Assembly: GCA_018436595.1 (NCBI GenBank)
Contig: JAHDLC010000008.1
Location: 1 to 56,335, forward strand
DNA length: 56,335 bases
Source of the DNA: Synergistaceae bacterium
GTDB lineage: Bacteria; Synergistota; Synergistia; Synergistales; Aminobacteriaceae
Direction: 5' to 3'
The notes under the pieces were generated by a model. That model worked only from the letters and a program-made list of their open reading frames with translations, was not told the DNA's origin and ran no database searches. Position 1 is the first letter of the stretch, and the number at the start of each line of letters is the position of its first letter. This document shows positions 5,221 through 9,779 of the stretch, in pieces. The position numbers and the translations under genes are program-made.

Positions 5221-5580
5221 CTATTTGCCCAGGGCGCTCCGCGCCTGCTCGGTAAGCTTGACGAAGGCAGGCATGTCGTTGATGGCCAGCTCGGAAAGCA
5301 TCTTCCGGTTGATGGAGATTCCCGCCTTCTTCAGTCCGTTCATCAGCACGCTGTAAGACAGTCCATTGGCCCGGGACGCCGCGTTGATACGGGTTATCCA
5401 CAACCGCCTGAAATCCCTTTTCTTGCGCTTCCTGTCGGCATAGGCCCTGGAGAGAGAATGAAGGTATGCTTCCCTGGCTCTTCTGTACACATTCTTTTTC
5501 CGTCCCCAGTATCCCTTGGTGATGGAAAACAGTTTCTTTCTTTTTCTATCGCTGGCGCTACCACCTTTGACGCGGGGCAT
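5221..5580 (-). CDS. rplT: 50S ribosomal protein L20
   Basis: L20 binds 23S rRNA and is needed for early 50S assembly. The 119 residues match family length. They include the basic N-terminal extension (MPRVKGG, KLFSITKGYWGRKKNVYRRA) and the conserved segment RRLWITRINAASRANGLSYS in the globular domain. It lies 46 bases after rpmI in the universal infC-rpmI-rplT order. In several bacteria L20 represses its own operon by binding the leader. The structured leader upstream of infC in this window is a candidate target, which is inference. Confidence 0.98.
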   Translation of the reverse strand: MPRVKGGSASDRKRKKLFSITKGYWGRKKNVYRRAREAYLHSLSRAYADRKRKKRDFRRLWITRINAASRANGLSYSVLMNGLKKAGISINRKMLSELAINDMPAFVKLTEQARSALGK

Positions 5581-5626
5581 CGCTCGTCACCTCTTTCATG
5601 AATATTGACTAAAAACGAAATATACC

Positions 5627-5824
5627 TCAGCTGTACGGAAGCAGCTTTCTCATGTACTCCATCTGCGTATCGTCAACGTAGCCGGTCTTGCGGAGCTTTC
5701 TGAGTCTCGAAGGGTTCTTGCAGGTGAGCAGATGTCCTCTTCCTGCCTTGCGGTAGGAGAGCTTTCCCGTCCCTGTGAAAGAAAATCTTTTTTTTGCTCC
5801 CGAATGGGATTTAAGCTTGGGCAT
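5627..5824 (-). CDS. rpmI: 50S ribosomal protein L35
   Basis: Small basic large-subunit protein, 65 residues. It begins MPKLKSHSGAKKRF, the standard L35 start, and continues with the conserved lysine/arginine-rich stretch KNPSRLRKLRKTGYV. The frame is open further upstream, but the ATG at 5824 matches the family start and is preceded by GGAGGAA, so the upstream extension is ignored. It lies between infC and rplT. Confidence 0.97.
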   Translation of the reverse strand: MPKLKSHSGAKKRFSFTGTGKLSYRKAGRGHLLTCKNPSRLRKLRKTGYVDDTQMEYMRKLLPYS

Positions 5825-5921
5825 GATGTGTTCCTCCTTCCCCGGATATTGAGTCAAGATAAAAGCCCGCCGCTGTCTGCGGCAGGCGGAAAAGCGGATC
5901 AAAATCTATGCAGTCACGGAA

Positions 5922-6566
5922 TCACTCTGCCGGTTTTTCCACGGATACCGTCGGCGTCTCTTTCGGCTTTCCGTTATTCTTTTGTTCGGTCGTCCTGGCT
6001 GTTTCTTTCTTTTCGGGCTTCGGAGCGACTTTTCCCTGGCCGGGAGGAAGGGGGGTAAGCATGATCCTCATGTACCGGCCCTCCATGCGGGGGTTCCCTT
6101 CGCTCTTTCCGAGCCCGTCGCAGTCGGCAATCACACGGGCGAGGACTTCTTCGCCCTTGTTGAGAAAGGACATCTCGCGGCCCCGGAAGAACACGGAAAC
6201 CTTGACTCTGTGTCCGTCCTCAAGGAAGCCCTTGATCGCCCTGACCTTGAAATCATAGTCGTGTTCATCGATTTTCGGGCGCATTTTCATTTCTTTGAGG
6301 GCCTGGACTTTCTGTTTCTTTCTCGCGTCCTTCTCCTTTTTCTGGAGCTGGTAGCGATACTTCCCGTAGTCCAGTATCCTGCACACCGGCGGATTGGCCT
6401 GAGGGGCAACCTCGACAAGGTCGAGCTGCCGTTCTTCTGCCAGCCGAATTCCCTCCACCGTGGGGATTACACCCATCTTGACGCCGTTCTCGTCGATAAG
6501 GAGCACTTCACGGGACGTGATTTCACGGTTGACTCTGGGATCTCCGTCTTCTTTTCTTGCTACTAT
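5922..6566 (-). CDS. infC: Translation initiation factor IF-3, apparent AUA start
   Basis: IF-3 binds the 30S subunit, blocks premature joining of 50S and proofreads start codons. The conserved N-domain begins VNREITSREVLLIDENG. This is upstream of the first in-frame ATG/GTG/TTG (GTG 6506), so that internal codon cannot be the true start. The frame is closed by TGA at 6575-6573, only two codons upstream of ATA 6566. The only start that keeps the N-domain and fits the strong GGAGGTGA (6573-6580, spacing 6) is ATA 6566, giving 214 residues. Rare start codons such as AUU in infC of E. coli allow IF-3 to repress itself. An AUA start would serve the same loop. The C-terminal 35 residues form a charged Lys/Glu/Pro tail longer than usual. 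Confidence 0.93.
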   Translation of the reverse strand: MVARKEDGDPRVNREITSREVLLIDENGVKMGVIPTVEGIRLAEERQLDLVEVAPQANPPVCRILDYGKYRYQLQKKEKDARKKQKVQALKEMKMRPKIDEHDYDFKVRAIKGFLEDGHRVKVSVFFRGREMSFLNKGEEVLARVIADCDGLGKSEGNPRMEGRYMRIMLTPLPPGQGKVAPKPEKKETARTTEQKNNGKPKETPTVSVEKPAE

Positions 6567-6715
6567 AGCCTTTCACCTCCGTGTGAAATATGAAGAGGGG
6601 CCGGTGAAGCCACCGGCCCCTCGCAAATAACCCGAGAGATTCTCCTGAACCGGAAAACGTGCCGCGCCGTCCGGTGAGAGGGTGGCCCCTCTTCTTTGTA
6701 CTTATTGTAAGAAAG
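6567..6715 (-). promoter_or_regulatory. Structured leader of the infC operon with mutually exclusive stems
   Basis: The roughly 150-base leader holds a 12-bp perfect stem (arms 6595-6606 and 6611-6622, 4-base loop) ending about 14 bases before the infC Shine-Dalgarno. Its 3' arm is also perfectly complementary over 11 bases to an element near the transcript start: GAAGAGGGGCC (6684-6694, read on the minus strand) can pair with GGCCCCTCTTC (6592-6602). The two pairings exclude each other, as in attenuators and ribosomal-protein autoregulatory leaders. No U-run follows the local stem, so control of translation is more likely than termination (inference). The ligand could be L20 or IF-3 status; the sequence does not tell. 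Confidence 0.6.
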
Positions 6716-6722
6716 CTGAATG

Positions 6723-6751
6723 AATATATCACACAGCCGGGAAAAAGGCAA
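6723..6751 (-). promoter_or_regulatory. Promoter of the infC operon
   Basis: Minus-strand TTGCCT (6746-6751), 17-base spacer, extended -10 TGA-TATATT (6723-6728). The predicted transcript start is near 6715, which leaves the 150-base structured leader before infC. Assigned from consensus only. Confidence 0.65.
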
Positions 6752-6778
6752 TATTTTCCTCCGTCCCTGAAGAATGTA

Positions 6779-8698
6779 TCAGATGGACGGCTCGCCCCTG
6801 CCTGCCCCCTCTGTGGAGAACCAGTGCCGGGCCACAAGTGCCGCGAAGAAAACGAAGCTTGAAATCCTCAGAATTCTCAGCGGATTGACCATGAGAATCC
6901 CCGCCAGGATAAACAGCGCTCTTTCCAGGAAGGACATATCCCTTTTGAACATTCCTATGATGCCGCAGGAGAGGGAAAACACACCGATAATGGCGGTGAC
7001 AACGTCAAGAAGATACTTCGGCAGAACGAAGTCTATGAAAAGAAGATCGGGGTTGTAGACGAAAAGATAGGGCAAAAGCAAGCCGGAAAGAGCCAGCCCG
7101 AGGGCGGACACGGCCACCTTGAAGGGACGGGCTCCCGCCAGCCCGGCAGCTGTATAGCTCGTGAGTGCCACGGGAGGAACCACAGCGGACATGGTGCCGT
7201 AGTAGAAGGCGAAGAAATGGGCTGCCAGGGGATGGACTCCCATCTGCTGGAGTGCCGGAGCGGCAATCGTTGCGGTAATGATGTAGCAGGGAGTTGCGGG
7301 AAGGCCCATGCCGAGGATAATTGCTGCGATCATGCACAGGATGAGGGCGGCCCAGAGTTTTCCTCCTGCGAACATAATGACGTTCATGGCAATCACCTGG
7401 CCCAACCCCGTCATCCCCACGGCACCGACGATGAAGCCCACTATGGCGCAGGAAATCCCGACCGGTGCGGCACTCCGGGTTCCGCTGTCCAGAGCCTCTA
7501 TGACCTCCCGAATACCCATTCTGGTAGACCGCTTCAGGGAAGAAACCAGAACAATGGCAAAAAGGCCGAGAAAGGCGGAATAGAGAGGGGTGTACCCTGC
7601 TACGAGAAGGTAAATGATGACCACAAGGGGAATGGTCATGTGCCCTTTGTCGAGCATGGTCGCCTTCAGGGATGGGATATCTCCGGGCTCCATGCCCTTC
7701 AGCCCCCTCTTCTTTGCTCTCAGGTCCACCATGAACATGATGGCGAGATAATACAGGAGCGCGGGAGTGAAGCCGGCGATCATGATTTTCACGTAGGGAA
7801 TTCCCAGGAAGGTGCTCATGATGAAAGCTGATGCTCCCATGATGGGCGGCATGAGAATGCCTCCTGTACTGGCAGCCGCTTCGACGGCCCCGGCGAAATG
7901 AGGCATGTACCCCACCCTCTTCATCAGGGGAATGGTGAATGCCCCCGTCGTGGCGACATTGGCCTGGGCGCTTCCGGAAATACTCCCCATGAGAGCCGAG
8001 GCTACCACTGCCACCTTTGCGGGACCTCCCCGGTATCTCCCGGCGAGAGCGAGGGAGAAGTCGTTGAAGAACTCGCTGGTCCTTGAGGCCGCCAGGAATG
8101 CTCCGAAGAGGATAAACATGAACACATAGCTGGAGGAAACCATGAGGGTAACTCCGTAAATTCCCTGGTCCGTGAGAGCCATACGGATGATGATTCTTTC
8201 CCAGTTGAATCCCCTGTGGGCGAAAAGCCCGGGGAAGTAGGGACCGAGACGGGTATAGGCAAGGAAAAGAAGGCTGAGAACCGTCAGCGGGAGGCCGACT
8301 GCCCTTCGGCTCGCTTCCACGAGGAGGGCCATGGTGACCACGGCGACCGCAAGATCGGCAAACGTTGCCTGGAGGTTCGTCTGAAGCAGCCTGTCATAGG
8401 TGATGAGCAGCCAGACCATGCACCCGAGGGAAATTCCTGCCAGAACCCAGTCGGGCATGGACGGCCGTTCCCTTGGTGATCCGGCAAAGGCCGGATAGAA
8501 AAGAAAGATGATCGCCATGAGGGTTCCGAGATGAATTGCATTCATCTTGATGGCAATGAGCAGACCGATGCTGTTCATCCAGAAATGGACAAGGGCTGTA
8601 GAAACGGTAAGGACGAGGGCCGCCCTGCCTGCAGTTCCGTTCAGTTTTCTCGTTGGGATGGATTCTCCCGGGAGAATTGCGGAAAGAAGTTTTTTCAT
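6779..8698 (-). CDS. TRAP transporter fused permease (4TM/12TM), TAXI type
   Basis: Inner-membrane translocating subunit of a TRAP carrier in which the small (DctQ-like) and large (DctM-like) subunits are one polypeptide. The 639 residues contain many hydrophobic segments, a DctM-type core with GSISGSAQANVATTGAFT and STGGILMPPIMGASAFIM, and the late motif GMGLPATPCYI. This matches the TRAP 4TM/12TM fusion family. ATG 8698 has GGAGGAG nine bases upstream and replaces a longer frame starting 13 codons earlier that has no comparable ribosome site. It follows its receptor gene and a terminator-like hairpin lies between them. Such carriers use sodium or proton gradients. Substrates are often glutamate or dicarboxylates in this family, but none can be assigned here. 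Confidence 0.93.
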   Translation of the reverse strand: MKKLLSAILPGESIPTRKLNGTAGRAALVLTVSTALVHFWMNSIGLLIAIKMNAIHLGTLMAIIFLFYPAFAGSPRERPSMPDWVLAGISLGCMVWLLITYDRLLQTNLQATFADLAVAVVTMALLVEASRRAVGLPLTVLSLLFLAYTRLGPYFPGLFAHRGFNWERIIIRMALTDQGIYGVTLMVSSSYVFMFILFGAFLAASRTSEFFNDFSLALAGRYRGGPAKVAVVASALMGSISGSAQANVATTGAFTIPLMKRVGYMPHFAGAVEAAASTGGILMPPIMGASAFIMSTFLGIPYVKIMIAGFTPALLYYLAIMFMVDLRAKKRGLKGMEPGDIPSLKATMLDKGHMTIPLVVIIYLLVAGYTPLYSAFLGLFAIVLVSSLKRSTRMGIREVIEALDSGTRSAAPVGISCAIVGFIVGAVGMTGLGQVIAMNVIMFAGGKLWAALILCMIAAIILGMGLPATPCYIITATIAAPALQQMGVHPLAAHFFAFYYGTMSAVVPPVALTSYTAAGLAGARPFKVAVSALGLALSGLLLPYLFVYNPDLLFIDFVLPKYLLDVVTAIIGVFSLSCGIIGMFKRDMSFLERALFILAGILMVNPLRILRISSFVFFAALVARHWFSTEGAGRGEPSI

Positions 8699-8715
8699 CC
8701 GGTTTCGCTCCTCCG

Positions 8716-8755
8716 AAAAAAGGGCGGCATGGGACAAAAGAAGCCCACGCCGCCC
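8716..8755 (-). terminator. Intercistronic terminator/attenuator between TAXI receptor and permease
   Basis: Minus strand: a 12-bp stem with one G-U (arms 8722-8733 and 8744-8755, 10-base loop) followed directly by six Us (8716-8721). The permease Shine-Dalgarno starts one base beyond the U-run. Partial termination here would give more receptor than permease mRNA. Confidence 0.8.
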
Positions 8756-8783
8756 GGATGGCTGGTAAAATCCTGCCCTGCAA

Positions 8784-9779
8784 TCAGGGAAGAAGTTCCT
8801 GGGGAATGGTCATCCCAATTTCCCTGAAGAACTTGACGGCACCGGGATGAAGAGGAGCACCGAAAAGGCCGTCCACGGGATTGTCGAAATCAACCTTCGT
8901 AAAGGCTGCATGCTCCTTCTTCAGATCTTCTTTCTTGCTGTACACGATCTTCAGCATGTCATAGACGAGCTCTTCGGGCACATCCTTCCCGACGAGAAGG
9001 GCGGACTTGATTCCGGCCACCCTGAGTTCCTTCTCCTGGTTTGGATAGGTTCCGGCGGGAATAAGCACCGCGGCATAAAAGGGAGCTTCCTTTTTCAGTT
9101 TCGCAATATCATCGGGAGAGAACTCGAGCATGTTCACTTCCTGTCGCCCCGCATAAAGTTCCGCCACCGCGGCAACGGGAACGCCGGCTTCGGCGTTGAA
9201 GGCGTCAAGCTGGCCGTTCTGAAGAGCCTGGGATGCTTCACTGTAGCCCACGTACTCCGCTCTGATGTCGTCGAAAGTAAGCCCCGCGAGGGCCTTCAGC
9301 AGAACCCGGCTGCTGAATTCCGTTCCGGAGGCGGCAGGACCTACGGCGACCTTCTTGCCCTTCAGGTCTGCCCATGTTTTGATGCCGGAGGAGCCGCTCA
9401 CCACGAACTGGGTCACATCAGGCCACAGCCCCATGACGTAGCGCAGGTTTTCGATCTTCTTCCCTTCGTAGCGGACCGTTCCGGTATAGGCAAAACCGGT
9501 GAGGTTCGCCATGGCAATGGCCATCTCGGCCTCGCTGCGCTGCATCATGTCCAGGTTTTCCACGGTTCCTCCTGAACTCTGGGCGGACCATTTGTACCCC
9601 TTATCCATAAGTGCCGCATTGAAGTGATTGGCGAGGATGGTGCCGATAGGATAGTATGTTCCTCCGGTGGAGCCTGTGACGATGGTGACAAACTTGCCGG
9701 AGGCGAAGGCCGAACCTGCGGCGGAGAGAAGGAAAAGCGCGAGACAGAACAGGACCAGGATCTTTTTCGTTGACTTCAT
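8784..9779 (-). CDS. TRAP transporter TAXI-family solute receptor
   Basis: Periplasmic substrate-binding protein of 331 residues. A signal peptide covers about residues 1-26 (KKILVLFCLALFLLSAAGSAFA) and has no lipobox cysteine, so the mature protein should be soluble. The TAXI hallmark TGSTGGTYYPIG follows at about 35-46, then SAQSSGGTVENLDMM and the hinge-region GKKVAVGPAASGTEFSSR. Its own extended -10 promoter lies about 80 bases upstream, and a terminator separates it from the fused permease. The family binds carboxylates such as glutamate or 2-oxoglutarate in the few studied cases; the ligand here is unknown. The arrangement receptor-then-permease is standard for TAXI systems. Confidence 0.94.
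   Translation of the reverse strand: MKSTKKILVLFCLALFLLSAAGSAFASGKFVTIVTGSTGGTYYPIGTILANHFNAALMDKGYKWSAQSSGGTVENLDMMQRSEAEMAIAMANLTGFAYTGTVRYEGKKIENLRYVMGLWPDVTQFVVSGSSGIKTWADLKGKKVAVGPAASGTEFSSRVLLKALAGLTFDDIRAEYVGYSEASQALQNGQLDAFNAEAGVPVAAVAELYAGRQEVNMLEFSPDDIAKLKKEAPFYAAVLIPAGTYPNQEKELRVAGIKSALLVGKDVPEELVYDMLKIVYSKKEDLKKEHAAFTKVDFDNPVDGLFGAPLHPGAVKFFREIGMTIPQELLP

Follow-up and report, generated by a model that had tools for sequence, protein, structure and literature searches.

In the genome of a Synergistaceae bacterium, infC, the gene encoding IF3, is preceded by a strongly structured leader, which raises the question of whether this leader belongs to a new class of ribosomal-protein leaders or to a known one, and which of its competing pairings may serve as the switch. 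The window, i.e. the whole stretch of 56,335 nucleotides that was analysed, carries the leader with all its elements on the minus strand, followed on the same strand by infC (5922–6566; IF3_N and IF3_C domains, Pfam), rpmI, encoding L35 (5627–5827; PF01632, E 5.5e-23), and rplT (5221–5580; PF00453, E 2.1e-43), which encodes L20, the proposed ligand. The start codon of infC is presumably AUA (6566–6564), as indicated by a survey of start codons, and a GGAGGT Shine–Dalgarno sequence is located at 6575–6580. In the relatives, the placement of leaders directly upstream was checked for infC only. In the window, thrS and infC are separated by transporter genes of the DctM-like and NMT1-like types (6779–9779, minus strand).

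The sequence-only reading of this DNA described a 12-bp stem just before the infC ribosome site, whose 3′ arm is shared with an 11-base perfect complement at the start of the leader. Both elements are present on the minus strand. The stem, a presumed terminator hairpin with counterpart hairpins in relatives, spans 6595–6622 (6622–6611 paired with 6606–6595, loop 6610–6607; 10 of the 12 pairs are GC) and is followed by the tail TTCATATTTC (6585–6594), an interrupted U tract with five U in its first eight bases. The complementary stretches, GAAGAGGGGCC (6694–6684) and GGCCCCTCTTC (6602–6592), have exactly the end points that had been claimed, and their pairing takes eight bases of the 3′ arm and three bases behind it. 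The folding energy of the 153-nt leader, −61.9 kcal/mol, was equalled or bettered by a single one of 200 dinucleotide shuffles (z −3.69); since both this fold and the 11-bp duplex exceed chance expectation, the existence of two exclusive pairings is well founded, and the general logic of an attenuator or autoregulatory leader is supported, although the proposed switch between the 5′ arm and the 3′ arm of the terminator is not the conserved one.

The core of the leader (6648–6696), delimited by the covariance models R1 and R2, contains the H1/H2 junction to which L20 would bind. It begins with the AA dimer of an AAGN motif (6695–6696), which is followed by helix H1 (6677–6692; 6692–6687 with 6682–6677, loop 6686–6683) and helix H2 (6649–6675; 6675–6670 with 6654–6649 and 6668–6665 with 6659–6656), the latter including the paired CC (6674–6673) and GG (6651–6650). 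These helices are found both in the MFE structure and by covariation, and a small optional hairpin (6634–6644; 6644–6641 with 6637–6634) is seen in the MFE structure only. A promoter-like pair, GTGATA-17-TACAAT (6704–6732; 9 of 12 matches), has its −10 element at 6709–6704, which would place the transcript start near 6697, so that the transcript probably begins approximately where the 11-base stretch begins; a second promoter-like pair ends at 6723.

At the Rfam gathering score, only two tRNAs were detected in the whole window. Below that score, cmscan of positions 6400–6900 (501 bases) aligned 6702–6586 with the L20 leader RF00558 over the full length of the model (1–127 of 127) at 37.5 bits (E 7.1e-6), with H1, H2 and the terminator all present in the order of the model. 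The gathering score of 58.7 bits is a curation threshold and not a structural feature, yet a match below it limits the claim to homology and like function rather than Rfam-level membership. No match at the gathering score was obtained for RF00558 in any of 185 Synergistota genomes (best score 57.5), and the threshold thereby hides a phylum. The 20 best matches in the phylum are all located just before infC (places compared by eye); most of the weaker ones lie elsewhere and resemble noise, and below-cut-off matches are also returned from unrelated control genomes. Taken with the place of the leader, its covarying helices and its antiterminator complementarity, the match suggests, with a probability of about 0.86, that the window leader is a diverged form, in Synergistota, of the known L20-sensing attenuator of Firmicutes.

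The spread of this scaffold was assessed among 170 infC leaders, including that of the window; L202 had been dropped because tblastn found no IF3, and L064 was left out because no ribosome site was found. When diverse cores were aligned with MAFFT, gaps of the loops came out in the wrong places, so the seed was restricted to equal-length sequences of one family (alignment A4, prior to which row L189 of A3 was dropped). Choosing H2 by lowest energy had given hairpins that were too long, and that output was not used. The resulting model, R1, took its eight seed leaders solely from f8, a different family of the phylum, and nevertheless finds the window core (6696–6648) at 28.4 bits (E 2.1e-5). 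The second model, R2, built from 66 R1 matches with the window among them, recovered 130 of 171 infC loci (70 of 100 and 60 of 71 by source) with one match each, and its core is present in 57 of the 58 Synergistota genera sampled, pointing to an earlier origin of the L20 leader or to its transfer. The 41 loci missed by R2 comprise 37 in genus g10 (among them L102, which is cut short), two in family f9, and L015 and L026, in which little sequence precedes infC. Across whole genomes, R2 matched 127 of 185 with a cut-off of E ≤ 0.05; three of these carry an additional match, with an E no better than 0.017. In the genome of the window, which is itself in the R2 seed, it gave a single match at that cut-off (E 5.1e-7). 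The f9 leaders L067 and L080, which R2 misses, show a GC-rich fold near the ribosome site instead; R3, a further model described below, matched no f9 genome.

In 16 control infC loci from other phyla (L267–L282), R1 gave one match (E 0.31) and R2 three: L282 (0.0012), L274 (0.063) and L279 (0.19). On a contig titled as an Acetobacteraceae MAG, L282 carries before infC (2806–2961) an RF00558 match of 46.1 bits, again below the gathering score of 58.7; this leader could reflect a misnamed bin, a transfer or another holder of the L20 leader. RF00558 gave no match on L274, a Firmicutes MAG, in which infC is surrounded by a HEARO RNA scoring above gathering and by two T-box-like matches that fall short of it, the three places being 169–483, 5379–5632 and 5833–6178.

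Covariation in related Synergistota leaders, which had been proposed as a check, is observed for both H1 and H2. Two alignments were used, both fitted to the structure of the model, which favours that structure; one of them, A6, also takes in L282, from another phylum, as well as a short additional match in L157. In A5 (66 rows, 63 distinct), 96.1% of the cells are paired and 9 of 14 pairs are changed on both sides, and none of 500 shuffles equals the alignment on any of the five measures. In A6 (62 rows, 60 distinct), the corresponding values are 96.7% and 10 of 14; here again no shuffle out of 500 does as well on four of the measures, the remaining one being reached by 9 of 500. The covariation counts of both alignments drop sharply when the partners are slid by one column. 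The pair types in H1 are AU, GC and GU, and the R-Y pair that opens H2 occurs in the 128 rows as A-U (80), G-C (23), G-U (18), U-G (1), A.C (4) or a gap (2).

According to passages of PMC7247131, L20 leaders and 23S rRNA share two consecutive G-C pairs and an AA dimer. These recognition elements are present in the window and are strongly conserved: of the 123 leaders with a full H1, 122 have retained the AA of AAGN, and the first of the two H2 pairs is C-G in all 66 A5 rows and in 60 of the 62 A6 rows, the second in 65 and 59, respectively, the other rows being gaps except for one C.C and one gap against A. A search for 23S rRNA in the genome of the window found none. By eye, three Synergistota 23S sequences and that of E. 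coli all contain UAAGUG and GGGGCUAA beside paired strands, which are GG/CC in E. coli and GC/GC in Synergistota.

The conserved alternative pairing was absent from the sequence-only reading. In the window, the loop and 3′ strand of H1 can form a 12-bp duplex of −18.5 kcal/mol with the 5′ arm of the terminator (6608–6687; 6687–6682 with 6613–6608 and 6681–6676 with 6622–6617, with a bulge at 6616–6614). For comparison across the phylum, L282, L064, the second L157 match and L108 (390 bases from the gene, the limit being 260) were removed from the 128 rows of A5 and A6, leaving 124; omission of L180 and L157 gave 122 leaders, 116 of them distinct, for the exchanged-terminator test, and L180 alone was left out of the per-genus test. 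The terminators come from a simple scan, some of whose picks are wrong (e.g. L016 and L182; L139, L149 and L166) but were retained. The mean duplex energy in the 116 leaders is −12.19 versus −9.94 (sd 0.19) with the terminators exchanged (0 of 2000), and two control pairings give −4.28 versus −3.88 (sd 0.12) and −7.81 versus −6.75 (sd 0.17). Part of this signal reflects shared composition and kinship, as the control pairings and the 11-bp pairing also beat exchanged terminators. With composition shuffles in 55 genus representatives, the mean z of the pairing is −1.72 (se 0.17), with 26 of 55 at p ≤ 0.05, versus −0.60 and −0.98 for the two controls (6 and 7 of 55). The pairing is particularly plain in family f11, where CAUCUAUCUGCC faces the terminator arm GGGCAGAUAG, and in f8, where AUGCGCC faces GGCGCAU. 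On the basis of the exchanged-terminator and per-genus results, this conserved pairing between H1 and the terminator 5′ arm is taken as the antiterminator.

The 11-bp pairing could itself be the working alternative fold, with the 5′ strand 6694–6684 set against the 3′ arm of the terminator. In the window it is a perfect duplex, the best between the H1 5′ side and the terminator 3′ side (−25.4 kcal/mol; z −6.61 against composition shuffles of the terminator side), and no other terminator among the 116 distinct leaders pairs as well with the window strand; across those leaders, the own terminator is slightly better than exchanged ones (−9.30 versus −8.47, sd 0.21; 0 of 2000). When composition is held, however, the mean z falls to −0.40 (se 0.21), with 7 of 55 genera at p ≤ 0.05, and its counterpart in the permuted genus g10 described below, the first H1 strand with the terminator 3′ arm, shows no excess (3530 of 5000 permutations as good). 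The pairing requires the 3′ arm to have been made already, which would be late for stopping the terminator, and the similarity of the H1 and terminator arms suggests that the duplex largely follows from the other pairings. Weakly conserved elsewhere, it is thus unlikely to be the operative switch.

The same observations bear on the broader alternatives to a diverged L20 leader. If nothing in the leader were regulated, it would be a constitutive structured 5′ UTR or an upstream terminator, with infC controlled by IF3 only, through its AUA start; AUA and AUU starts are general outside g10 and the U tract of the window is weak, as such an arrangement would allow, but covarying H1 and H2 helices and a conserved antiterminator complementarity are not to be expected of a plain terminator, which makes this reading very improbable. 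The suggestion that the leader represents a new class of ribosomal-protein leaders, resembling the L20 leader without being related to it, draws on the score below Rfam gathering and on the description of the L20 leader as narrowly distributed to Firmicutes in part of PMC6097659. Against it, RF00558 aligns end to end, the order of H1, H2, spacer and terminator is identical to that of the L20 leader, AAGN and CUC-R-CC...GG are common to the leader and the Rfam consensus, the genes for L35 and L20 lie downstream, and the best RF00558 matches of the phylum sit just before infC; the suggestion of novelty therefore hardly deserves credence.

For the leader as a diverged L20 attenuator, the mechanism may be envisaged by analogy with B. 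subtilis, where L20 binds the H1/H2 junction and the terminator is stabilized (PMC6097659, in part). The transcript would begin a few bases ahead of AAGN. When free L20 is absent, the H1 loop and 3′ strand (6687–6676) would pair with the arm of the terminator that is transcribed first (6622–6617 and 6613–6608), so that the terminator would be unable to close and infC, rpmI and rplT would be transcribed. L20 in excess of its rRNA sites is predicted to bind the H1/H2 junction through the AA dimer and the two C-G pairs of H2, which would lock H1 and H2, free the terminator 5′ arm and end transcription before the infC ribosome site. In 97 of 116 leaders, the eight bases that follow the picked hairpin include at least five U, a count biased upward since the hairpin picker rewards U. 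The window, with five U in the interrupted tract, may have a leaky terminator; its weak U tract makes termination the least certain step and the weakest part of the case.

Start codons point to a possible further layer of control. The rule applied took the first eligible in-frame codon past the ribosome site; on this basis, infC in the 130 leaders outside g10 starts with AUA (101), AUU (20) or AUC (8), with none in one case, and each of the eight AUC starts has an AUU or AUA one codon on. This prevalence of rare starts suggests IF3 autoregulation through start-codon discrimination. Such autoregulation is perhaps relaxed in g10, where the starts in 40 leaders are UUG (26), AUA (10), AUU (3) or none (1), several of these leaders having UUG one codon after AUA.

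Genus g10, which belongs to the family of the window and is represented by cervid and goat gut or rumen bins, accounts for most of the loci missed by R2. Its leaders read GGCU-C-U-CC-[H2]-GG-linker-AAGN-AGCC, i.e. the H1 3′ strand, H2, and then AAGN with the H1 5′ strand, an order recognized by sequence anchors alone in 32 of 40 leaders. It is very probable that the infC L20 leader of g10 was circularly permuted in evolution, the H1 loop having been opened and the end of H2 joined to AAGN, much as GG and AAG adjoin in E. coli 23S rRNA. A strict scan for the permuted form found 25 of 40 g10 leaders; it also fired in 10 of 129 leaders from other genera and, among shuffles, in 3 of 500. The flanks forming the permuted H1 pair in 32 of 32 leaders, with the limit that pairs 1–2 of the four are fixed by the search anchors and only pairs 3–4 test the helix; the latter show one A-U for G-C change, so that covariation of the permuted H1 is thin, and the ‘further pair types’ measure of alignment A8 was reached by 146 of 500 shuffles. 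The model R3, built from 20 of the 32 permuted leaders, matched 36 of 185 genomes, comprising 34 of the 43 g10 genomes (best E 0.0021 or lower; 20 in the seed, 14 outside it) and two elsewhere at E 0.02–0.04. An Rfam search of six permuted loci at E 1 gave no match. By eye, the L20 site of E. coli 23S rRNA also has a helix strand followed directly by AAG, as in the permuted order.

The expression platform appears to have been rearranged together with the core. A −10-like hexamer begins 5–30 bases from the first strand in 31 of 32 permuted leaders, versus 7 of 31 in the next interval upstream, a position that leaves no room for a canonical H1 strand upstream in g10. The last-made H1 strand pairs with the terminator 5′ arm better than expected (−9.77 versus −7.88, sd 0.31; 0 of 5000). 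Transcription in g10 would probably start at the former H1 3′ strand, the antiterminator having moved along, and L20 binding may be retained, judging by the conserved elements and the place of the leader. In G044 and G059 (loci L292 and L293), the permuted leader lies approximately 1.45 kb and 1.3 kb from infC, respectively. A TnpB-like frame is found between the two in both genomes, in pieces in G059; that of G044 corresponds to IS605 OrfB (Pfam, G044 only).

In a tree of the IF3-N domain, computed from 81 columns and with 32 of its 79 inner branches open, a single supported clade of 37 rows unites the permuted leaders with L065, L029 and the cut-short L102, and the permuted label needs two changes rather than one. 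Leaders L065 and L029 of g10 have the canonical order (L065 by R2; L029 by eye, with no model match) but share with the permuted leaders a U in place of the R. They are possible intermediates between the canonical and permuted forms. The g10 leaders would offer a natural experiment in which a protein-recognition site and its expression platform were rewired together, with possible intermediates present.

The closest known system is the L20 leader of Firmicutes (RF00558; infC operon of B. subtilis), which the window leader resembles in its place before infC, rpmI and rplT, in its succession of H1, H2, a variable spacer and terminator, and in its AAGN, CUC-R-CC and GG elements. By eye, the RF00558 consensus also contains the complementarity of the H1 loop with the terminator 5′ arm (CACCCGC with GCGGG-c-GUG). 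The window leader differs in its score below gathering, a shorter spacer between H2 and the terminator, its occurrence in Synergistota and its weak U tract. The L20 operator of E. coli is a pseudoknot. The L20 operators of Gammaproteobacteria and the L20 candidate of Deltaproteobacteria share the AA dimer and the two consecutive G-C pairs on other scaffolds, as described in parts of PMC7247131, where ribosomal-protein leaders are portrayed as typically not widespread, with only one new motif in more than one phylum; its main text contains no word starting with synergist or permut. Among the titles and abstract openings listed by full-text literature searches, in part only the 10–15 best, no report of an L20 leader in Synergistota or of a permuted ribosomal-protein leader was found. 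Passages of PMC10085705 describe natural circular permutation for group II introns, 5S rRNA and the hammerhead and twister RNAs, along with genes in permuted form for tmRNA, rRNA, tRNA and SRP RNA; none of the permuted RNAs named there is a protein-binding mRNA leader, and the window leader itself is unpermuted. If the reading of g10 is true, its leaders are a case in which a regulatory, protein-binding leader of an mRNA was circularly permuted in nature, both forms occurring in close relatives, and they have in common with the permuted RNAs of PMC10085705 a preserved junction whose strand order has been rotated.
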